Positions 1,948-13,670 of a stretch of 64,000 nt of DNA are shown here, one piece after another; position 1 is the stretch's first letter, and the number at the start of each line of letters is the position of its first letter. Under the pieces are notes generated by a model. The model was not told where the DNA came from, did no database searches, and worked only from the letters and a program-made list of their open reading frames with translations. The translations under genes and the position numbers were made by a program. The DNA comes from Clostridia bacterium (GTDB lineage: Bacteria > Bacillota > Clostridia > Oscillospirales > Acutalibacteraceae): assembly GCA_017461625.1 (NCBI GenBank), contig JAFTXJ010000009.1:1-64000 (forward strand), read 5' to 3'.

Positions 1948-3246
1948 TTATATAAAATAGTCATTCCATTTTTCTGACAAGTGCATTGCAATGTTATATG
2001 CCAATACACAAGGAACGGCATTTCCTATTATTTTATATGCATTACTAGAGTTGACAGAAGCGTTCTCAAACGTTTTTGGTATAATAAATTGATAGTCATC
2101 AGGAAAGGTTTGAATACGAGCACATTCTCGAATAGTTAACCTTCTTTCGGATAAGCCTATTTTTAACTCTTCCGTATGTTGACCGCCATTTTCAGCGCTC
2201 AATCTTCTGAACTCAATATTTCCATGATGTTCGGAACGGATGGTAGGAGCAATTGAATCCATTTTTACTTCCGTTTGCCCCTGACAATGCTTCCCCATAA
2301 ATTTCGCTTTCGAATATTTTTGCTGCGATATGTCCTTAGACTCATGTGGCTCAACAAGGTCTATAAAAGCCTCCGTACAAGTAACATATCTTTCCAAACT
2401 ATTGTCCTTGTTTGAATGTGTTTGCGGCGGATATGGATCATAATAATCAGGAATGGTGTTTTGGGACAATGCTTCAAGAGCTTCAGGTTTTAACGAATTC
2501 TTTTTAAAACCGAAGAAAATGACTCTTTCTCGGGATTGTGGAACACCATAATCGGCAGCGTGTAATACTCTTGCCGGTACAACTAAATACCCACCATTTG
2601 CGGCGTCTGCAAAATCACTTTCTATTATTTCCTTTACATCCTCAAGATTCGTTAATCCTTTAACATTCTCAGCAATAAACATCTTTGGTTGTGTTAACGA
2701 AATAACTTCACGCATCCAAATGTATAGTTGTCCTCTATTTTCTACAGAAGGTTCGTCTGCTGAAATTCTTTCTCCATTATGACTTTTTTGTGAATTAAAT
2801 CCTTGTCTTTTACCTGCAATAGAAAAATCCTGACATGGAAAGCCCCCGGTAACAACATCTATATTATCAGGAAATACCTTTTTTCCGTTTTGTGCAATCT
2901 TAACCAAATCTACTATACTTTCAATATGATATATGCGATTTGAATGCTCGTTTCTTTTTTGAAAATAAGAAACCCATGCTGCTTTTGCGTCAGGTCTAAT
3001 ATCGTTTGCAAAAACCGTTTTAAATCCTGTGGGGGCAACTTTAACATATTTTTCATTTTCTTCAGTTACCCATGTGGGATGAATGCTGGTGTTTATAGAG
3101 CGTTTCAAACAAGTGAAATCACCTTCAAAACCGATATCCATTCCACCACAACCACTAAATAGTGATAAAACCCTCAACGATCCATCGTCTACATATTCAA
3201 TAGGTTCTTCATCAAAAAAAGAATCAAATAACGTTAACTGTTCCAT
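1948..3246 (-). CDS. DNA (cytosine-5-)-methyltransferase, type II
   Basis: Transfers methyl groups from S-adenosylmethionine to C5 of cytosine in a specific DNA site. 432 aa, complete. Motif I FSGCGG is at residues 30-35, motif IV PCQ at 137-139 with catalytic C138, motif VI ENV at 193-195, motif VIII QSRER at 237-241, and motif X GNAVPC lies near the C-terminus. The target recognition domain lies between motifs VIII and IX. The start codon overlaps the stop of the upstream XRE gene by one base (TAATG), so the two are co-transcribed and probably translationally coupled. No intact restriction enzyme lies beside it, so it may be an orphan methylase or the survivor of a decayed restriction-modification system. 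Confidence 0.96.
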   Translation of the reverse strand: MEQLTLFDSFFDEEPIEYVDDGSLRVLSLFSGCGGMDIGFEGDFTCLKRSINTSIHPTWVTEENEKYVKVAPTGFKTVFANDIRPDAKAAWVSYFQKRNEHSNRIYHIESIVDLVKIAQNGKKVFPDNIDVVTGGFPCQDFSIAGKRQGFNSQKSHNGERISADEPSVENRGQLYIWMREVISLTQPKMFIAENVKGLTNLEDVKEIIESDFADAANGGYLVVPARVLHAADYGVPQSRERVIFFGFKKNSLKPEALEALSQNTIPDYYDPYPPQTHSNKDNSLERYVTCTEAFIDLVEPHESKDISQQKYSKAKFMGKHCQGQTEVKMDSIAPTIRSEHHGNIEFRRLSAENGGQHTEELKIGLSERRLTIRECARIQTFPDDYQFIIPKTFENASVNSSNAYKIIGNAVPCVLAYNIAMHLSEKWNDYFI

Positions 3247-3476
3247 TAATTTTTCACCTCGTTGGAAATATTATCGTCATTGTAAACCAAAATGTCCTGC
3301 GTATTGCAATTAAACAATTCGCACAACTTGTTCAATGTTTCGAAATTAATGGCAGTTTGTTTTTCATGATACAAAAACGATACGGTGTTGCGAGCTAAAC
3401 CTGTTTTATTACATACATCTTGTATAGTCATTTTATGTTTACCCATCAAGGTGGATAAATTACATTTGATTGACAT
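3246..3476 (-). CDS. Small XRE/Cro-like regulator coupled to the methyltransferase
   Basis: 76-aa helix-turn-helix protein made almost entirely of a Cro/CI domain: NLSTLMGKHKMTIQDV (helices 1-2), TGLARNTVSFLYH (recognition helix) and the terminal FNCNTQDILVY common to this subfamily. The start at 3476 follows AGGTGAG; a longer frame to 3524 runs back through the promoter and is rejected. It is the first gene of a two-gene operon with the methylase, as are controller proteins of type II restriction-modification loci. Its likely job is autoregulation, possibly through the CTAATCA inverted repeat upstream. Confidence 0.85.
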   Translation of the reverse strand: MSIKCNLSTLMGKHKMTIQDVCNKTGLARNTVSFLYHEKQTAINFETLNKLCELFNCNTQDILVYNDDNISNEVKN

Positions 3477-3495
3477 TAAACTCACCTCTATAGAT

Positions 3496-3580
3496 AGGAT
3501 ATCATATTTCTCATGAAAAGTCAAGTTAAAACGCTTAGATTCCTAATCATAATAATTATATTTCTAATCATTTTGATTAG
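3496..3580 (-). promoter_or_regulatory. Promoter and inverted-repeat operator candidate of the XRE-methylase operon
   Basis: Minus-strand -35 TTGACT (3519-3524) and -10 TATCCT (3496-3501) with a 17-bp spacer. Upstream, CTAATCA (3564-3570) and TGATTAG (3574-3580) form an inverted repeat, and a further CTAATCA lies at 3543-3549. These are candidate binding sites for the 76-aa regulator. Confidence 0.6.
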
Positions 3581-4169: not shown

Positions 4170-5414
4170 TTATTTATGCATCTGTCCCGGCAAAGTTATA
4201 TCGTTGGTCTGATTCATTGGGGCTTTCACCTCTTCAAGCAAGGCAGCGGAGTGAACAGCTTTGTTACCAAAGCGTTGACGAAGAACTTCCACTGCGTTAT
4301 CAAGCTTTTCTATTTTTTCAATTTTTTTCACATCGTTGAACATATCCACTTGAAAAGCTTCGTCTGCAGGGCGAAGGTCAATCGCTCTCACGGTTACGGC
4401 TCTGACCTTGATTTTTTCAGGCAAATTGTCGTCAAACAGCTTTCTTCCCGTGCGAGCAATTATATCCGCACTCTGGGTGGGAAAAGGTGTTTTACATTGA
4501 TATTGCTTAACGCTGAGATTGTTATCTTTAATTGAAATCTGCACTCCGCAAGCGGAAAGGTTGTGAGCCTTAAGCTTGTGGCCGATATCCTGACTCATTT
4601 CAAGCATAACGAGCCACACTTCCTTTTCAGTAGTCAAATCTTCCTTGCAGGTTATACCGTGACCAATTGATTTCACTTCAGATTTATAATCCTTGTGCAT
4701 CACCTTGGAAGTATCTGTTCCGTTGGCGAAGTGCCAAAGCTGCTCCCCTTTCACACCAAACCAGCTTTTTAAAAGCTCGGGATTTGTTGCCGCCAGCTGA
4801 CCGATTGTGTGCACACCATAAAAATTCAGCTTCTGCACTGTTGAACGACCAACATACAGAAGCTCGTTCACAGGCAAGGGCCACACTTTTTCTTTATAAT
4901 CTTCAATGCTGATTTCGGTAACGGCATCGGGCTTTTTCATATCAGAGCCGAGCTTAGCAAAAATCTTGTTAAAAGAAACACCGACGCTCACCGTAAGACC
5001 CAATTCCTCTTTCATTTCACGGCGGATTCGTTGAGCAATATCTACCCCTGAGCCAAACAACATACCGCTGTCGGTAACGTCAAGCCAGCACTCATCCATA
5101 CCGAACGGCTCAACCAAATCGGTATATCTGCAATAAATTTCTCTTGCAAGCTTGGAGTATTTCATATACTGCTCAAAATGAGGCTCAACCATAATCAGAT
5201 CAGGACAAAGACGCTTTGCCTCCCAATTGACCATAGCTGTTTTAACCCCGCACTTTTTTGCAAGCTCACTCTTTGCGAGAACGATGCCGTGGCGGTTTTC
5301 GGTGCTTCCGCAAACAGCAACGGGCTTACCTCTTAATTCAGGATTGAGCATAATTTCAACCGAAGCATAAAAGCTGTTAAGGTCACTGTGTAAAATTACA
5401 GGTGTTTTTTTCAT
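4170..5414 (-). CDS. Y-family (DinB/UmuC-type) DNA polymerase
   Basis: Error-prone translesion polymerase, 414 aa. The palm begins ILHSDLNSFYASVE (first catalytic Asp) and continues with the steric and second metal-site regions around VEPFGMDECWLDVT (second acidic pair). A helix-hairpin-helix region (LLYVGRSTVQKLNFYGVHTIGQL) and the little-finger domain follow. The ATG at 5414 follows TAGGAAC; the open frame to 5519 covers the promoter and is not used. It is divergent from the XRE-ImmA operon, and both promoters sit in the same 105 bp, so the pair is probably co-regulated. It is closer to the Firmicutes DinB/UmuC group than to Pol IV proper. Confidence 0.93.
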   Translation of the reverse strand: MKKTPVILHSDLNSFYASVEIMLNPELRGKPVAVCGSTENRHGIVLAKSELAKKCGVKTAMVNWEAKRLCPDLIMVEPHFEQYMKYSKLAREIYCRYTDLVEPFGMDECWLDVTDSGMLFGSGVDIAQRIRREMKEELGLTVSVGVSFNKIFAKLGSDMKKPDAVTEISIEDYKEKVWPLPVNELLYVGRSTVQKLNFYGVHTIGQLAATNPELLKSWFGVKGEQLWHFANGTDTSKVMHKDYKSEVKSIGHGITCKEDLTTEKEVWLVMLEMSQDIGHKLKAHNLSACGVQISIKDNNLSVKQYQCKTPFPTQSADIIARTGRKLFDDNLPEKIKVRAVTVRAIDLRPADEAFQVDMFNDVKKIEKIEKLDNAVEVLRQRFGNKAVHSAALLEEVKAPMNQTNDITLPGQMHK

Positions 5415-5545
5415 AAAGTTCCTAAACTTCCTATTGACAATAATTAAATTTCGTTTTATAATGGTGTAAAACTTCCTAAACTTCGTGTTTATTGTATCAT
5501 CTGTTGCGAAGTTTGTCAACGATAATTTTTGAAAGGAGAGGTCTT
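5415..5545. promoter_or_regulatory. Divergent promoters with shared AAACTTC half-sites
   Basis: Plus strand: TTGACA 5434-5439, 17 bp, TATAAT 5457-5462, driving the XRE operon. Minus strand: TTGACA 5514-5519, 17 bp, TACAAT 5491-5496, driving the polymerase. The heptamer AAACTTC occurs at 5424-5430, 5469-5475 and 5478-5484, and inverted at 5508-5514, next to the minus -35. These sites would let one repressor cover both promoters. Promoters are seen directly; repressor binding is inferred. Confidence 0.75.
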
Positions 5546-5977
5546 ATGAAAGATTTTTCTCAAAAAGTGAGAGAGGCAAGAACTCTTTTAAAATTAAATC
5601 AGGAGGAATTAGGCAAGCTGGTCGGTGTGTCAACAAGGGCTGTTGTTGCCTATGAAACTACCGCCACCAAGCCGAGAGCATCCACCCTTCGCAAGCTTGC
5701 AGAAACATTACAGGTATCGGTGGATTATCTTACTAATGATAAAATCGATGACCCGTTATACGGCATTGAAAAGCAACCCTTTGTTGAGGAAGCAAGAAAT
5801 CTCTACGGTGACAAGGCGGCAAGAGAAATTGACTTTTTAATGGAACGCAATGCCGCACTTTTTGCAGGGGGCGAAATTTCGCAGGACGCAAAAGATGCTT
5901 ATTTTGAAGCGGTTATGCAGGCTTATCTTGAATGTAAAAACAAAGCCAAGCAGACTTACGGCAAAAAGGCTGAATAA
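5546..5977 (+). CDS. XRE-family repressor of the polymerase/ImmA module
   Basis: 143 aa. The N-terminal helix-turn-helix (residues 4-60) has the classic QEELGKLVGVSTRAVVAYETT and PRASTLRKLAETLQVSVDYL helices. A C-terminal acidic and helical region of about 80 residues could form the dimer or protease-recognised part. The start at 5546 follows GAAAGGAGAGG. It is 12 bp upstream of an ImmA-like protease gene, as in ImmR/ImmA and DdrO/IrrE pairs, where the protease cleaves the repressor. It is likely to repress itself and the divergent polymerase through the AAACTTC sites. Confidence 0.88.
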   Translation: MKDFSQKVREARTLLKLNQEELGKLVGVSTRAVVAYETTATKPRASTLRKLAETLQVSVDYLTNDKIDDPLYGIEKQPFVEEARNLYGDKAAREIDFLMERNAALFAGGEISQDAKDAYFEAVMQAYLECKNKAKQTYGKKAE

Positions 5978-5989
5978 AGAGGGATTTTT

Positions 5990-6526
5990 ATGGCTGATTT
6001 TAATTATATATGCTCCTTAGTTGAAAATATACGGAGCAAATATGACCAAAATAATCCGTTCAGGCTTTGCGATGAAATGGGAATCATTACCCTTTTTGCA
6101 CCTATGGGCGACTCCCCTGTTGCCTGCAAAGGATTTTTTCTGACACAGAGCAGAATAAAAAGTATAACTATCAACAGCGATTTATCAGAAGATTTTCAGC
6201 GAATCATCTGTGCCCACGAGCTTGGTCACGCAATGCTTCACAGGGACCGAAGCGGAGTGAATGCATTTCACGATTTTTCATTTTTTGACGGTGTTGACAG
6301 GCTTGAATATGAAGCAAATATTTTTGCAGCAGAGTTTCTTCTTCCTGACGATGAAGTGCTGAAAATTCTCAATGACGACCTTTCGTTTTTTCAGGCGGCA
6401 GCTAAGCTTTATGTGCCCGCAGAGCTGCTGGATTTTAAATTCCGCACACTTAAATGGAAAGGCTACAAGGTGATTGAGCCTCCCCTTAACGCAACAGGTA
6501 ATTTTTTAAAAAAAGTTCACGAATAG
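5990..6526 (+). CDS. ImmA/IrrE-family metallo-endopeptidase
   Basis: 178-aa zinc protease. The HExxH motif is H76-E77-L-G-H80 within ICAHELGHAMLH, and the glutamate-bearing EYEANIFAAEFLLP helix supplies the third ligand region, as in COG2856. There is no signal peptide, so it acts in the cytoplasm. Family members cut a cognate XRE repressor after a stress signal (ImmR in ICEBs1, DdrO in Deinococcus). Here the XRE gene is immediately upstream. No transfer functions are coded in this operon, which suggests a stress-response rather than a conjugation role. Confidence 0.93.
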   Translation: MADFNYICSLVENIRSKYDQNNPFRLCDEMGIITLFAPMGDSPVACKGFFLTQSRIKSITINSDLSEDFQRIICAHELGHAMLHRDRSGVNAFHDFSFFDGVDRLEYEANIFAAEFLLPDDEVLKILNDDLSFFQAAAKLYVPAELLDFKFRTLKWKGYKVIEPPLNATGNFLKKVHE

Positions 6527-6527
6527 G

Positions 6528-6806
6528 ATGAGGATATTGGAAAACAGAATTTATGTTTCGGTGGATGTTTGTTTTGACATCTACGGTCAGATGATACCCA
6601 CAAATATTAAATGGGAAGACGGATCAGTCTACCCCATTGACAAGGTAACGGACATCCGCCAGGCTTCCGCCGCAAAAGCAGGCGGCCAGGGTGACAGATA
6701 CACAGTTATGATTGCAGGAAGGGAAAAGTATCTGTTTTTTGAGCGTTCCTGTGCACGAAACGGCAACATTCTCGGAAGTTGGTTTGTGGAGAGGAAAGCC
6801 GTATGA
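6528..6806 (+). CDS. Small beta-rich protein of the polymerase/XRE/ImmA operon
   Basis: 92 aa, unknown function. It begins one base after the ImmA stop codon and its own stop overlaps the next start (ATGA), so it is translationally coupled on both sides. The pattern of alternating hydrophobic residues, KWEDGSVYPIDKV and RYTVMIAGREKYLFFE suggests a small beta-barrel. Similar short proteins accompany polymerase genes in Firmicutes; I do not recognise a named family. It could be a partner of the polymerase or a ligand-binding partner of the protease. Confidence 0.7.
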   Translation: MRILENRIYVSVDVCFDIYGQMIPTNIKWEDGSVYPIDKVTDIRQASAAKAGGQGDRYTVMIAGREKYLFFERSCARNGNILGSWFVERKAV

Positions 6807-7699
6807 CTGATAACATTTATAAAATTTGCCCCACTTATGAAACTGACACATTCACCCTTAGATTAATAAAAGTTGAAGATGCTGAAAACCTGCTCAACTG
6901 TTATTCAGACAAACAAGTTTCGCAAAAAGCTAACAAAGATTACTGCACAAGCGATTTTTATTACACAACCGTTAAAGAAATGGAAGAATGTATCCGCTTT
7001 TGGCTAAAAGAATATGAAGAACAACGATATGTCAGATTTGCAATCATCTTAAAATCAACCGATAAAGCTGTTGGTACTCTGGAAATTTTTGGTGGTGAAG
7101 ACGGTGTATTAAGAATTGATATAGCATGCTCTTTTGAAAAACATATTGAAGAACTTATCAGATTGACGGTTTTCAATCTTATCAAAGACTTTAATATCAA
7201 AAGCTTAAAAATCAAAGCATCTAATACACCCGACCGAATTCCATTGCTTGAAAAATATGGCTTCATCCCATCTGAAACATTTAGAAAAGGTTTAGGTTAT
7301 TACGAAAGACCTATTTTTAGATTTTTTGATGAGTCCAAAGGCGTTGCTTACTGCGGTTTGGCTTGTTGCGTTTGCAGTGAAAACGAGAATTGCAAAGGCT
7401 GCCGAAATGACGGATGTAAAGATAAAAACTGGTGCAAAAGCTATAATTGCTGTAAAGCAAAAAAATTGAACGGATGTTGGGAATGTGAACAGTTCCCCTG
7501 CGATTATTCTATACTCAACAAACTAAGAGTTAAAACATTTGCAAAGTATATTGGCAAAAACTCAGATGAAAAGCTAATATCAAAATTACAAGAGTTTGAA
7601 AAAGACGGTATTCTTTATCATCATTACAAAAAATTAGTGGGAGATTATGATTTGTTTGAAAGTGAAAATGATATTTTAGACTTTCTCGATAATACCTGA
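6803..7699 (+). CDS. GNAT acetyltransferase-like domain fused to a Cys-rich DUF3795 domain
   Basis: 298 aa. Residues about 15-160 resemble a RimJ/RimL-type GNAT fold (TFTLRLIKVEDAENLL at the start, IPLLEKYGFIPSE at the end). Residues about 180-290 are a DUF3795 domain with many cysteines (YCGLACCVCSENENCKGC and CWECEQFPC), likely to bind zinc or another metal. The first ATG used (6803) overlaps the preceding stop and follows GGAGAGGA. The fusion suggests an acetylation step tied to a metal- or substrate-binding module; the substrate is unknown. The acetyl-CoA loop of the GNAT part is poorly conserved, so activity is uncertain. Confidence 0.78.
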   Translation: MTDNIYKICPTYETDTFTLRLIKVEDAENLLNCYSDKQVSQKANKDYCTSDFYYTTVKEMEECIRFWLKEYEEQRYVRFAIILKSTDKAVGTLEIFGGEDGVLRIDIACSFEKHIEELIRLTVFNLIKDFNIKSLKIKASNTPDRIPLLEKYGFIPSETFRKGLGYYERPIFRFFDESKGVAYCGLACCVCSENENCKGCRNDGCKDKNWCKSYNCCKAKKLNGCWECEQFPCDYSILNKLRVKTFAKYIGKNSDEKLISKLQEFEKDGILYHHYKKLVGDYDLFESENDILDFLDNT

Positions 7700-9436: not shown

Positions 9437-9457
9437 CATATAAATACAACAATTATC

Positions 9458-9496
9458 CCCGACATCAGAGACAATTTGATGTCGGGTTTATTGTTT
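9458..9496 (+). terminator. Intrinsic terminator after the GH36 gene
   Basis: CCCGACATCA (9458-9467) pairs with TGATGTCGGG (9477-9486), then TTTATTGTTT. Confidence 0.88.
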
Positions 9497-9552
9497 AATA
9501 TGTCAATATTTTAAGCCTAAAAAAAGTTTTATAATATTTTAAAAGTTTTTTC

Positions 9553-9579
9553 GTTACATTTTGTATTTTGGCTGACTAC
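9553..9579 (+). promoter_or_regulatory. Candidate ECF-type autoregulated promoter
   Basis: GTTACA (9553-9558) and GACTAC (9574-9579) with a 15-bp spacer lie just upstream of an ECF sigma gene. They do not resemble sigma-A boxes. Autoregulation is inferred from family behaviour. Confidence 0.45.
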
Positions 9580-9619
9580 ATAATGAGAGCAAAAATCAAC
9601 CTGAAAGGAGACGGTGCAA

Positions 9620-10159
9620 TTGCCGGCAAAAAAACAGACGACTGCTTTGCTGCAGCAATTATATGATGACTATCGGCTGAAGCTGTTTAATTTCTGCCTT
9701 GCCCGTCTTTCAGGTGAGCGAGAGTCGGCAGACGATTGTGTGCAGGAGGCGTTTCTCGTGCTCAGCTCAAAGCTGAATAACGGCGAGACAATCGAAAACC
9801 CGAGAGCTTTTCTTTACAGAACGGCAGAGAATTTCGTCAAGCGCAAACAGGAACAGATTGTCAAAGACACCAAACGACTTGTTCCTCTTGAAACAGCAAC
9901 CGAAGCCGCTGCTAGCGATGAGATATATAATGAAACGCTTGACAGTATCGACTTCGATGCTCTTGCCGAAATGCTGATTGCAACACTCGACGAAGGCGAA
10001 AAATTGCTCTACAATCTGCGATACATACAAAACACGCGTGTTGATGAAATCGCAACCATTCTTAATATTTCACGACCTGCGGTTTCAATGAGACTTATGA
10101 GGCTTAAAACAAAAATAACCGATATGGTCACTCAATTAGATTTCGAGAAAGGAGGCTGA
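9620..10159 (+). CDS. ECF-type RNA polymerase sigma factor
   Basis: 179 aa. Sigma region 2 is seen in LYDDYRLKLFNFCLARL and DDCVQEAFLVL, and region 4 in LRYIQNTRVDEIATILNISRPAVSMRLMRLKTK. The ribosome binding site GAAAGGAG ends at 9610. A GTG at 9614 is only 3 bp away, while a TTG at 9620 has a 9-bp spacing, so I favour TTG; the GTG start would add two residues. It heads a three-gene operon with a membrane protein in the anti-sigma position and a secreted LRR protein, so it probably controls a cell-surface response. Confidence 0.9.
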   Translation: MPAKKQTTALLQQLYDDYRLKLFNFCLARLSGERESADDCVQEAFLVLSSKLNNGETIENPRAFLYRTAENFVKRKQEQIVKDTKRLVPLETATEAAASDEIYNETLDSIDFDALAEMLIATLDEGEKLLYNLRYIQNTRVDEIATILNISRPAVSMRLMRLKTKITDMVTQLDFEKGG

Positions 10160-10164
10160 CCGTT

Positions 10165-11136
10165 ATGACCGTAAGCGTTAATAAAGATATATTTCTTCAC
10201 ACCGATTTCAACGGAGATTTAACAGAATATCTTTGCAATTACCTTAACGCACTCATCGATGAAGAATTCGAAAAAGAAGACGCGGATTTTGATTTTATTG
10301 ACGAATGTGCAGATGCAATAAACTCAATCCGAGACGGTTTTATTGATGCTGTTATCCCCGTAATTTCACGAAAAGATTTTATGGCAAAGCTCGGCATCAG
10401 AACGGTACGCTTTTCAAAGGCTTTTGCGGCAGTTATTGCTGCGGCTATTATGCTTGTTGCAGTGAACGGCATTATTGCAAGTGCAACAGATTATAACATT
10501 ATCGAAGAAGTTTCCAAAAAGGTAGCTGGTTTTTTTGCCCAAACAGACAAGAAGCCTGATTTCACAGAAAAAGCTGAAATAACAGCCACTACTACCTTTA
10601 CACCGATAACTGTCGTTATTGTTCCTCAAAGACTTATTGTAACATTTGATTCATCATTTAAAGATGAATATACCATAGGTGAAAAATTTGACCCTAAAGG
10701 AATTGTCATAAGGGTATCATTTTCTGATGGCGAGGTTAAGGTTATTTCTTCTGATAATTATGAAATCATCACCGATAAAGACTTCGGTAAATCAGAGAAA
10801 CTTGAAACCGTTACAGTTAAGTATGAGAAACTTACCGAAACATTTTCGGTAAGGGTTCTCCGTGATGAAGATACAAAGGTTCTTAACTCTGTTTATGCCA
10901 CATTCCCTGAGAATTTTAATTTCAGGACTGACGATATTAACAACATCGACCTGTCAGGAATGGAAGTCTTTGCCGTTTACAGTGATAAAACGGAAGAAAA
11001 ACTCAGAAAAAGCGATTATACAATTAAAACAGAAATTCTTCCCGACGGAAAAACGGCAATGATTACGGTAAAACACAAGTCAGTTTATGCTTCATTCGGC
11101 ATAAAAGAAAGGTCACAAGGTGAAGATAATGAATAA
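10165..11136 (+). CDS. Single-pass membrane protein with bacterial Ig-like domains, probable anti-sigma factor
   Basis: 323 aa, starting 5 bp after the sigma gene with AAAGGAGG upstream. Residues 1-85 are acidic and cytoplasmic, residues about 86-107 form a transmembrane helix (AAVIAAAIMLVAVNGIIA), and the rest is outside. The outer part contains two group-3-like Ig domains (about 155-230 and 240-320), with signatures such as YTIGEKFDPKGIVIRVSFSDG. The topology and place in the operon fit an anti-sigma factor sensing the envelope, but no classical zinc-type anti-sigma motif is present. Confidence 0.75.
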   Translation: MTVSVNKDIFLHTDFNGDLTEYLCNYLNALIDEEFEKEDADFDFIDECADAINSIRDGFIDAVIPVISRKDFMAKLGIRTVRFSKAFAAVIAAAIMLVAVNGIIASATDYNIIEEVSKKVAGFFAQTDKKPDFTEKAEITATTTFTPITVVIVPQRLIVTFDSSFKDEYTIGEKFDPKGIVIRVSFSDGEVKVISSDNYEIITDKDFGKSEKLETVTVKYEKLTETFSVRVLRDEDTKVLNSVYATFPENFNFRTDDINNIDLSGMEVFAVYSDKTEEKLRKSDYTIKTEILPDGKTAMITVKHKSVYASFGIKERSQGEDNE

Positions 11137-13594
11137 AACTATTTCAAAAATACTTTCACTTATTCTGTCGGTAATGGTAACTGTCGGAATGGTTAATCTC
11201 GGTGCTTTTAAAATTAAGGCAGAAGCTCTTACCTATGGTGATTTTGAATATCAGATTTATTTTGATGAATATGCATCAATTACGAAATACAACGGCACCG
11301 ATGAAGTTGTTGAAATTCCTTCCGTAATCGGAAACAAACCTGTTGAGGCAATTGCAAAACATGCTTTTGAGAACAATAAAACTATATCAGAAGTAACAAT
11401 TCCACCAAGCGTCAAGACAATTCAGTCAGATGCTTTTAATAACTGTTCTTCTCTCAAAACAGTTAATCTTTCAGAAGGTCTAGAAGCACTATATCCTGCT
11501 TTCGAATTTACAGCTATTGAAAGTGTAACAATTCCATCAACTGTAAGATTTATGTATATAAATGCATTTACTAACGGGTGCGTAAAAGAGATTATTTTTG
11601 ATGCAAGTTATACAAAAGAATGCCATATAGCAGAGTTAGGAACAAATTGGTATGACGAGAACACAGAACTTGTTTTCAAAGGTCTTCCTGACGTTCAAAT
11701 TGATTTAGAATTGCGTAACGCAAATTATGTTTTCTATATGAAGGATGGAAATTACTGTTACAGACCTGATTATAAAAATACAACCGTTCCGGAGATTTTC
11801 ACTTGCGGAGATTATAAATACACTCTCGATTCAGGAGAAGCGACAATCGTCCGTTACAACAATTTTGATGCCGAAGAAGTTATTGTACCTCAAACTCTTG
11901 ACGGATATCCTGTTACAACAATTGGTGAATTTGCATTTTCTTCAGCTTCTGAAGTTGGAAAATCATTTGTTGACACAACTATATCTTATACATACAATTT
12001 CAAAAAAATTACCGTACCTGCAGGTGTAAAATCTGTAGAAAGATATGCGTTTGCAGAAAACGAATCGCTCGTCGAAGTTGTTCTCCCTGATGGTCTTACG
12101 AACTTTGGATACTGTGCATTTATGTTTTGCGGAAATCTTGAAAAAATCAATATTCCAAGCGGGACTGAAGTCTTACCGGACAATTTCCTTTTTGCTTCAC
12201 CAAATATGAGAACTACTTTACCGGATAGTTTAAAAATTGTCGCTAACGAAGCAATTCACATCACTACTTATGACAGAGATTACACCGACAACCCCGATTT
12301 TAACGCTGTTTTGCCGGATAGTGTAGAGTTTCTCGGCGAGGACTTGTTTAGTGGTTGCTGTTATGTAGCTGAACTGTCTTTGCCTCAAAGCCTTCAGGAA
12401 ATGCATGGTACATTTCGAGCTATGACGGATTTAAAGAGAATAAATTTTAACGACAGTCTGCATATAATTGGTGACTATACTTTCGTGGATTGTGTAAATT
12501 TAGAGGAAACTATCATTCCCGACAGTGTAACCCAAATTGGCGAAAATGCTTTTGACGGTTGTGAAAAATTATCAAAAGTTTATATGTCTGAAAACGTTAA
12601 GTGTGTCCCATACAGAGCTTTCTATGATTGTGTATCTCTGAACTATTTCAGTTGGAATTCTGACGAAAAAACTATCGGCAAAGATGCTTTCTACGGTTGC
12701 CCATTGAACGGCTTCGATTTTTCAAACTCATACGGAATTGATGACGGAGCTTTCTATGGTTCAAGCATTGAAAGTGCGAAGATTGGTAAGGGAGATTATG
12801 AAACAGACGAAAAACAAACTATCGGTGCACAAAGTTTTATGTGCTGCAGTGAATTGCAAACAGTTTCGCTCGGCGGTAATGTAACTGAGGTTGGTTCGCA
12901 AGCCTTTGCTGAATGCGAAAACCTCGAAACTGTTGTTATTGCAGATTCCGTTGAGAAAATTGCAGATGATGCTTTTGACGGCTCGGAAAAAGTGACAATT
13001 TACTGTTGGGAAGATTCTTACGCCCAAGCTTATGCAACCGAACAAAAAATAAAAGTAACTACCCTTGTTATCGACCCTATTCCAAATCAGACTTATACAA
13101 CAAAAGAAATAAAGCCTGCGTTGACAGTATCAATGTCTTCGCAGAAGCTTGACAACAGCGATTACACGGCAGATTTCTATAATAACGTTAACATAGGAAC
13201 TGCAAGTGTTGTTGTAGCGGGTAAGGGAGATTTTGATATGCTCATTTCTAAGGCGGATTTTGCAATCGTTGCAAAAAACATCGCAGATGTGCAATTTTCA
13301 TCAATTCCTGCCCAAACATATGAAGATTCTGCTATCACACCTGAAGTATCACTCAATTATAACGGCACAAATCTTCAGGAAGGCAAGGACTACACAATTA
13401 CCTATGAAAACAATAATTCTGTCGGGACCGGTACCGTTAGGATTAAAGGTATAGGTAATTATAAAGGAACGGTGACCATTAATTTTGAAATTAGAGAACC
13501 TTCTGTTCCCCAAAAAATCATTAACATAATTGCCGATTCCTTCTCATCCTTCTTCGCTAAAATTCTTACATTCTTTAATTCGATTTTTAGATAA
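11129..13594 (+). CDS. Secreted BspA-like leucine-rich repeat surface protein
   Basis: 821 aa. A signal peptide (residues 1-33, hydrophobic LSLILSVMVTVGMV, cleaved near AEA) is followed by many LRR_5 repeats of the form IPxSVTQIGENAFDGCEKLSKV (about 50-630). Two MBG/YDG-like beta modules follow (about 640-790; DYTITYENNNSVGTGTVRIKGIGNYKGT). The tail is hydrophobic (FFAKILTFFNSIFR) without an LPXTG motif. The ATG at 11129 follows AAGGTGA; a GTG at 11120 lies inside that site. The gene overlaps the anti-sigma candidate, so it is a member of the sigma operon. Likely an adhesin or host/polymer-binding protein. Confidence 0.88.
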   Translation: MNKTISKILSLILSVMVTVGMVNLGAFKIKAEALTYGDFEYQIYFDEYASITKYNGTDEVVEIPSVIGNKPVEAIAKHAFENNKTISEVTIPPSVKTIQSDAFNNCSSLKTVNLSEGLEALYPAFEFTAIESVTIPSTVRFMYINAFTNGCVKEIIFDASYTKECHIAELGTNWYDENTELVFKGLPDVQIDLELRNANYVFYMKDGNYCYRPDYKNTTVPEIFTCGDYKYTLDSGEATIVRYNNFDAEEVIVPQTLDGYPVTTIGEFAFSSASEVGKSFVDTTISYTYNFKKITVPAGVKSVERYAFAENESLVEVVLPDGLTNFGYCAFMFCGNLEKINIPSGTEVLPDNFLFASPNMRTTLPDSLKIVANEAIHITTYDRDYTDNPDFNAVLPDSVEFLGEDLFSGCCYVAELSLPQSLQEMHGTFRAMTDLKRINFNDSLHIIGDYTFVDCVNLEETIIPDSVTQIGENAFDGCEKLSKVYMSENVKCVPYRAFYDCVSLNYFSWNSDEKTIGKDAFYGCPLNGFDFSNSYGIDDGAFYGSSIESAKIGKGDYETDEKQTIGAQSFMCCSELQTVSLGGNVTEVGSQAFAECENLETVVIADSVEKIADDAFDGSEKVTIYCWEDSYAQAYATEQKIKVTTLVIDPIPNQTYTTKEIKPALTVSMSSQKLDNSDYTADFYNNVNIGTASVVVAGKGDFDMLISKADFAIVAKNIADVQFSSIPAQTYEDSAITPEVSLNYNGTNLQEGKDYTITYENNNSVGTGTVRIKGIGNYKGTVTINFEIREPSVPQKIINIIADSFSSFFAKILTFFNSIFR

Positions 13595-13633
13595 CCTATA
13601 TTTTAGTTACTGTGTATAACGGATGAAAATTCA

Positions 13634-13670
13634 GGAGCTGCCTCACTTTTAGTGAGACAGCTCCCTTTTT
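13634..13670. terminator. Bidirectional terminator
   Basis: GGAGCTGCCTCAC and GTGAGACAGCTCC form a long stem (13634-13664) with a single C/A mismatch, followed by TTTTT. It serves the convergent LRR and YhcH genes. Confidence 0.85.

Follow-up and report, generated by a model that had tools for sequence, protein, structure and literature searches.

We analysed a window of 64,000 nucleotides, the whole stretch at positions 1 to 64,000 of contig JAFTXJ010000009.1 from the Clostridia bacterium assembly GCA_017461625.1, and focused on a four-gene locus at 4170 to 6806 in which a Y-family DNA polymerase gene diverges from the genes for an XRE repressor, an ImmA/IrrE-type zinc metalloprotease and a 92-amino-acid protein. 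This locus is probably a self-contained, LexA-independent repressor-protease switch acting on a mutagenic polymerase. A sequence-only reading of the window had proposed a derepression switch for mutagenesis, and the parts of this proposal that sequences can test came out in its favour: the genes are conserved together, the two main operator-like repeats are conserved, LexA boxes are missing where the XRE gene is present, and the third protein is linked to the polymerase.

The polymerase-XRE-ImmA locus and its promoter region

The four genes stand where the sequence-only reading had placed them, and their Pfam domains were recovered. The polymerase (4170..5414, minus strand, 414 amino acids), the presumed controlled output, is Pol IV/YqjH-like and matched Pfam IMS, IMS_C and IMS_HHH_1, with the IMS catalytic and IMS_C little-finger domains above the Pfam cut-off; its top NCBIfam match was DNA polymerase IV PRK03103 at 349.7 bits, under the cut-off of 381. 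Residues D11, D107 and E108, which have a catalytic role, were invariant across 21 aligned sequences. The XRE repressor (5546..5977, plus strand, 143 amino acids) carries an HTH_3 domain and a conserved C-terminal LFAGG...AYW tail, and its closest solved relative is the ICEBs1 Xre DNA-binding domain. It is followed by the ImmA/IrrE-type protease (5990..6526, plus strand, 178 amino acids; Peptidase_M78, E 3.6e-20), with a HELGH motif and a downstream Glu; HTH_3 and Peptidase_M78 both exceeded the Pfam gathering cut-offs. The ImmA zinc site, H76, E77 and H80 with E106 as third ligand, was invariant in an alignment of 21 sequences from which the truncated L020 and L031 were excluded (L and G numbers denote our loci and genomes). 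Solved relatives of ImmA are IrrE (3dte) and CapP (7t5t), with CapP ranking top by sequence. Judged by gene pairing and intact zinc site, the XRE and M78 proteins fit the COG2856/XRE type of repressor-protease pair known from ImmR/ImmA and DdrO/IrrE.

The polymerase start (5414) and the XRE start (5546) are separated by a gap of 131 bp that holds both promoters, each near consensus, as the sequence-only reading had it. The predicted sigma70-type promoter of the XRE-ImmA-92aa operon lies at 5434..5462 on the plus strand (TTGACA-17-TATAAT, 12/12 consensus positions) and that of the polymerase at 5519..5491 on the minus strand (TTGACA-17-TACAAT with TG, 11/12). A 4-kb scan gave 16 promoter-like sites, compared with 8.3 in shuffles; these two scored highest, and they point toward each other. 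Transcription would start near 5469 for XRE and near 5484 for the polymerase, each about 7 bp past its -10 box; since the promoters are face to face, the predicted 5' ends of the two transcripts overlap.

The word AAACTTC was found exactly at 5424, 5469 and 5478 and inverted at 5508, the very positions given by the sequence-only reading. Four occurrences in 131 bp compare with 0.036 expected (Poisson P 7e-8, about 3e-5 allowing for 489 windows), and over the whole window there was no enrichment (20 observed, 17.8 expected). Three operator-like elements can be delimited. O1, AAGTTCCTAAACTTC (5416..5430, plus strand), lies directly 5' of the XRE -35 box; O2, AAACTTCCTAAACTTC (5469..5484, plus strand), lies midway between the -10 boxes, over both predicted starts; O3, an inverted AAACTTC half-site (5508..5514, minus strand), abuts the polymerase -35 box and is the least certain site. 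Exact matches to the pattern AANTTCCTAAANTTC in the genome that holds the window were confined to the polymerase-XRE gap. In the same way, the long operator O2 occurred exactly only at this locus in the window's genome and in its congeners G301 and G305, and as a G variant in genome G242. A genome-wide AAACTTC regulon was considered and rejected, given the lack of window-wide enrichment and the restriction of the long operator to the locus. A control pattern read backwards outnumbered the operator pattern in total in all four genomes scanned; the own-genome and four-genome scans differed in patterns and mismatch limits. The regulon appears to be a single locus. As the sequence-only reading had also noted, no LexA-like core was present in the 131-bp gap, even with one mismatch allowed.

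Conservation of the locus and apparent exchange with LexA

Among the 18 genomes of the genus in the collection, the window's own included, the same module was found in G301 and G305, where the XRE protein is 98% and 92% identical, respectively, and the polymerase 97% identical in both. Each of the three genomes has one copy (G301 is 97% complete). The four genes are open in the three species and the operators are conserved. In the three-way alignment, O2 was identical throughout, and O1 was identical in G301 and differed at one position in G305. Both promoters retained their -35 and -10 hexamers, and the promoter spacers have diverged. The comparison of AAACTTC sites between relatives that the sequence-only reading had called for thus shows O1 and O2 kept in two congeners while the spacers drift, and O3 less well kept. 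From the melibiase-like gene onward the right flank is colinear with G301 and G305 (77-92% identical), except for 9437-13665, so the module occupies a single site in the chromosome. The left flank is not shared, and the G301 contig ends on that side.

The genus is split, with three species in the XRE/ImmA form and nine in a LexA-box form. The nine congeners (L128-L136) carry a polymerase homologue 52-63% identical to that of the window, L136 being a fragment, with an exact GAACNNNNGTTC core upstream of the polymerase, mostly as CGAACATTTGTTCG; neither XRE nor ImmA was found in their available flanks. This box is absent upstream of the window polymerase. The remaining six genomes had no polymerase match or weak ones only. 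The window's own genome encodes LexA (192.9 bits), so that its polymerase either left SOS control or was never under it, in a LexA-bearing cell.

The survey was then widened. An order-wide search of 295 genomes gave matches in 239, and we analysed the window locus together with the 89 best-scoring further rows. A divergent XRE gene within 300 bp of the polymerase start was present in 25 of these 90 loci; as the loci are the top-scoring ones of at least about 150 rows, this fraction is not a prevalence. ImmA came next in 23 of them, and the two others (L014, L018) stop at contig ends. With 11 genus loci and 80 named loci the set reached 181, or 167 after dropping 14 at 95% identity or more; the named loci, the top 80 of 578, had been retrieved with an alignment of XRE-type polymerases only, which inflates the XRE-type share among them. 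A divergent XRE gene within 300 bp was found at 58 of the 167 non-redundant loci (XRE-type), with ImmA within 1500 bp in 52 of the 58, which bears out the expectation that the genes are conserved together. The six without ImmA in this range are L014 and L018, L151 and L154 (ImmA farther away), and L190 and L209 (none found). The other class holds 108 loci, three of them possibly misfiled (L069, L076 and L153 have a divergent ImmA within 1500 bp), and one locus with less than 150 bp upstream fell in neither class. Bearers that carry no label as metagenome-assembled genomes include Oscillibacter valericigenes An890, Hespellia stercorisuis DSM 15480, Pseudoflavonifractor sp. MSJ-30 and Proteocatella sphenisci DSM 23131. 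On a FastTree polymerase tree of 164 rows, the XRE-type state requires at least 22 changes.

The promoter scaffold persists across these loci. Face-to-face promoters (each at least 9/12) were found in 52 of the 58 XRE-type loci, and no pair stood in another arrangement by the rule used; the median gap between -10 boxes was 29 bp, and only in L204 and L209 among the 52 do the -10 boxes overlap. Both promoters reached at least 11/12 in 28 of the 58 loci and in none of 1160 mononucleotide shuffles. After masking of the promoter hexamers, internal repeats were significant against a mononucleotide-shuffle null (p 0.05 or less) in 47/58 XRE-type loci, 40/108 others and 42/165 polymerase-internal controls. 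As the controls pass often, the null is too easy and the group comparison carries the weight (XRE-type against others, Fisher p 5e-8). Repeat density peaked (0.87) midway between the -10 boxes. The operator words vary from locus to locus: their similarity followed the identity of the XRE HTH (helix-turn-helix) domain given the polymerase (partial Mantel r 0.213, p 0.0005, 1653 pairs), and more weakly polymerase identity given the HTH domain (r 0.071, p 0.03, same pairs). The AAACTTC word itself recurs in L066 of G242, whose XRE is 65% identical, and in the Oscillibacter locus L167. These correlations indicate that the layout persists while the putative operator words vary in step with the DNA-binding domain of XRE.

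LexA boxes are distributed the opposite way. An exact LexA core within 150 bp was found at 1/58 XRE-type loci and 45/108 others (p 1.5e-9), and a core with at most one mismatch at 9/58 and 66/108, respectively; among loci outside the first analysis, exact cores stood at 1/34 XRE-type loci and 23/43 others. By eye, the LexA-like near-matches at XRE-type loci lie mostly within the locus's own repeated words. Seven XRE-type loci (L071, L072, L078, L098, L165, L170 and L208) have LexA-box-like operator words of the form CGAA..TTCG; such words may mislead the scan, or the XRE operator may be derived from a LexA site. A paired test on the 164-row tree, with the LexA trait scored from sequence in every row, gave 12 independent pairs. 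When up to one mismatch was allowed, the box went the opposite way to the XRE state in 6.5 pairs on average and the same way in 0.2 (median p 0.031); for exact boxes the averages were 4.7 and 0.1 (median p 0.125). Of the 108 other loci, 42 had no XRE gene and no LexA core within one mismatch.

The two types also seem to use the same slot for their operators. Seven loci of the other class have a divergent 92-amino-acid gene; six of them, all except L179, show the face-to-face layout, and five carry a LexA-type box, which in four of the five (L012, L013, L155, L185) lies between the -10 boxes. With a LexA box in the same slot on the same layout, the two types seem to have a promoter scaffold in common on which the operator has been swapped. 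A lexA-like gene stands directly upstream of the polymerase operon in L074 (G198), L017 (G264) and L088 (G199), with the 92-amino-acid gene between lexA and polymerase in G198 and G264 and after the polymerase in G199; from this gene order, an adjacent lexA reads as a third way of controlling this polymerase locally.

At the level of whole genomes, LexA above the curated cut-off was found in 9/26 XRE-type genomes and 57/66 others (p 2.2e-6), the 66 being made up of 23 genomes picked for a LexA-type box (23/23 with LexA) and 43 further ones (34 with LexA). In this count the LexA-box congeners G300 and G310 were left out, G253, with both polymerase kinds, was taken as XRE-type, and G257 was counted once. 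Among the 17 XRE-type genomes lacking LexA, several of which belong to one genus and are not independent, 11 are at least 96% complete, including G242, complete in one contig; sub-cut-off LexA matches in 13 of the 17 are presumably other S24-type repressors. G242, with no LexA match, has two XRE-type modules (L263, L264) with different operators; as read from the open reading frames (ORFs), one lies near recombinase-like ORFs and the other beside an SRAP-like (MCGRY) ORF and a long dnaE-like ORF. We give an even chance to a wider claim, that in Clostridia control of an error-prone polymerase with an ImuB-C-like subunit has changed hands repeatedly between LexA and a dedicated XRE/ImmA switch, with the face-to-face scaffold and the operator slot staying the same and with the switch also present in lineages lacking LexA, and that phages may have spread the module.

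The 92-amino-acid protein and neighbouring genes

The last gene of the XRE operon (6528..6806, plus strand) codes for the protein that the sequence-only reading had left as an unexplained third component. The window protein had no Pfam or NCBIfam match, with 0 families even at E 10, and only 2 of 33 family members matched DUF6504 (PF20114) directly, the best at E 0.064, not above the cut-off. Profile-profile comparison linked the 28 members to the five members encoded upstream of the polymerase (98.6%) and these five to DUF6504 (81.8%); the direct link to DUF6504 ranged from 27% (28 members) to 41% (all 33), with XRE and ImmA controls at 0.1% or less. The AlphaFold model is almost all beta (pLDDT 88.5), and among the 33 members a C-terminal Trp (W85) is conserved in 90% or more and F86 in every one. 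The 92-amino-acid protein is thus probably a divergent standalone ImuB-C (DUF6504-like), a polymerase subunit. A YolD identity was rejected, as there was no PF08863 match and the lexA-linked relatives and the profile link favour ImuB-C. The gene was present in the available flanks, which differ in length, of 78/166 loci (35/58 XRE-type, 43/108 others). In relatives the gene often follows that of the polymerase or stands next to lexA, so that it belongs with the polymerase; the third component has no constant place in the XRE operon. SRAP-like genes near the polymerase, scored by N-terminal pattern only in loci of at least 6 kb, were not commoner at XRE-type loci (2/38 vs 6/73).

Next to the module, a GNAT-like acetyltransferase gene with a Cys-rich C-terminal part (6803-7699, plus strand) overlaps the end of the 92-amino-acid gene. 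It was rejected as a module member, being absent at the G305 junction; by eye, G305 has a look-alike of this ORF on the other side of the polymerase (L261:9596-10117). The segment 9437-13665, missing in the G301 and G305 flanks, codes for a sigma-70-like protein, a Big_3 protein and a BspA-type leucine-rich repeat protein. On the other side, a cytosine-C5 DNA methyltransferase gene (1948-3524, minus strand) has a small XRE (HTH_26) gene just upstream and an integrase (57-1061) nearby, and the methyltransferase/HTH_26 stretch looks like a restriction-modification or mobile-element piece.

Proposed mechanism, alternatives and meaning

On the gene anatomy and comparative pattern described above, the switch may operate as follows. 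XRE dimers would bind the operator-like repeats and silence both promoters. DNA damage would activate ImmA, with single-stranded DNA as the likeliest cue by analogy with IrrE/PprI, and the activated protease would cut within the C-terminal half of XRE. This would allow joint production of the polymerase and the ImuB-C-like protein, its partner, which is here encoded in the XRE operon, and fresh XRE would reset the switch once the signal ends. The opposed promoters should add transcript interference and so make the switch sharper.

Several observations weigh against this interpretation. ImmA, at 178 amino acids, is too short for the GAF-like domain that aids single-stranded DNA binding in IrrE/PprI, which leaves the inducing cue uncertain. 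The alternation with LexA weakens once relatedness is corrected for (12 pairs, p 0.031 and 0.125). O3 is imperfectly conserved, differing at one position in G305; the promoter pair is missing by scan in 6/58 XRE-type loci and significant masked repeats in 11/58, and the shuffle null is loose, 25% of polymerase-internal controls passing it. The module is also present in phages, and its function could be phage immunity rather than damage tolerance.

A polymerase homologue occurs in 126 phage records, the closest eight being 57-62% identical. Of four records opened among these eight, all Ca. Heliusvirales, three (PV036429, PV036413, PV036430), each described as a complete genome, have the polymerase facing XRE-ImmA-92aa, with promoter-like pairs that are alike by eye; the fourth, PV036438, has the 92-amino-acid gene and a different annotated repressor at that place. 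Since phages carry it, the module can travel, and it may have originated as a phage immunity switch. The locus could then be a remnant of phage or integrative-element immunity, with XRE as immunity repressor, ImmA as antirepressor and the polymerase as a leftover first early gene. The phage-type integrase at 57-1061 of the window fits such a remnant, as does the recombinase-like neighbourhood of one G242 copy, labelled from ORFs with no family search. We nevertheless consider it unlikely: the right flank is ordinary chromosome, with no phage family in four ORFs scanned and with the colinearity to G301 and G305 at 77-92% outside 9437-13665, the second G242 copy lies, by eye, amid chromosomal-looking ORFs, and genes open in three species with conserved operators indicate a switch that is maintained, not decaying. 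A phage origin would besides be compatible with a present role in damage tolerance.

The polymerase might also still be under SOS control through a diverged LexA site, with XRE-ImmA as fine tuning, as the LexA of the window's own genome and one XRE-type locus with an exact LexA core (L170) could suggest. This is very improbable, given that the window gap lacks a core even at one mismatch while the polymerases of nine congeners have clear boxes, that 17/26 XRE-type genomes have no LexA above the cut-off, and that LexA-like words at XRE-type loci fall, by eye, mostly inside the loci's own repeated words. A zinc metalloproteinase/HTH-Xre pair of Brucella has been described as a putative toxin-antitoxin system (PMC10538038), and the XRE-ImmA pair could by the same token be a toxin-antitoxin or self-regulating pair that stands beside the polymerase by chance. 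To this we give hardly any credence: XRE lies within 300 bp of the polymerase in 58/167 loci of the enriched set and 25/90 of the order-wide set, the repeats are also on the polymerase promoter, and loci that have XRE nearly always lack a LexA box.

The LexA-independent switch on the polymerase has several known relatives. It resembles ImmR/ImmA of ICEBs1 and related phage and integrative-element pairs in that an XRE repressor and a zinc protease are encoded as a pair, and ImmA is reported to cleave ImmR (PMC8072749); it differs in outcome, which there is prophage or transposon excision, whereas the pair described here stands next to the gene for an error-prone polymerase, which has an ImuB-C-like partner. 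With DdrO/IrrE (PprI) it would share an XRE repressor cleaved by a COG2856 protease in a DNA-damage response independent of SOS, the cleavage being by analogy in our case. Activation of PprI by single-stranded DNA is described (PMC10904395). DdrO/IrrE governs a set of repair genes, as against apparently one locus here, and the Deinococcus mutagenesis cassette is placed under RecA and LexA with DdrO/IrrE governing other genes (PMC8072749). Timinskas and Venclovas describe coupling to ImuB-C in two subgroups of YqjH that come mostly from Clostridia (PMC6511836). The lexA-imuB-C-polY and DinB/ImuB-C/SRAP operons combine an active Y-family polymerase with a standalone ImuB-C, as this locus probably does; lexA is often included in those operons, and here XRE-ImmA takes its place. 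A DUF955-DinB-ImuB-C gene link was published in 2013 with a suggestion of SOS-linked proteolysis; its main text does not use the word HTH, and its passages on this link name no repressor partner, operators, promoter layout or LexA exchange. CapP, the top solved relative of the window ImmA by sequence, belongs to CapH/CapP, reportedly an HTH repressor with an ImmA-like protease, and is said to control an anti-phage CBASS system rather than a polymerase. Among the literature matches listed, which are mostly open literature, we found no account of an XRE-ImmA switch over a Y-family polymerase or of its exchange with LexA. The repressor-protease pair as a device is therefore known; the coupling of the pair to a unit of polymerase and ImuB-C, and the way it alternates with LexA on the same scaffold, appear to be undescribed.

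Error-prone polymerases drive stress-induced mutation, and their control is usually described via LexA and RecA. If true, the exchange of LexA for XRE-ImmA would amount to a LexA-free, single-locus damage-tolerance response. With XRE-ImmA in the place of LexA, mutagenesis could escape inhibitors directed at RecA or LexA and answer other cues. One genus with related polymerases under two controls forms a natural series, in which the gain and loss of a LexA-free damage response would be directly testable.

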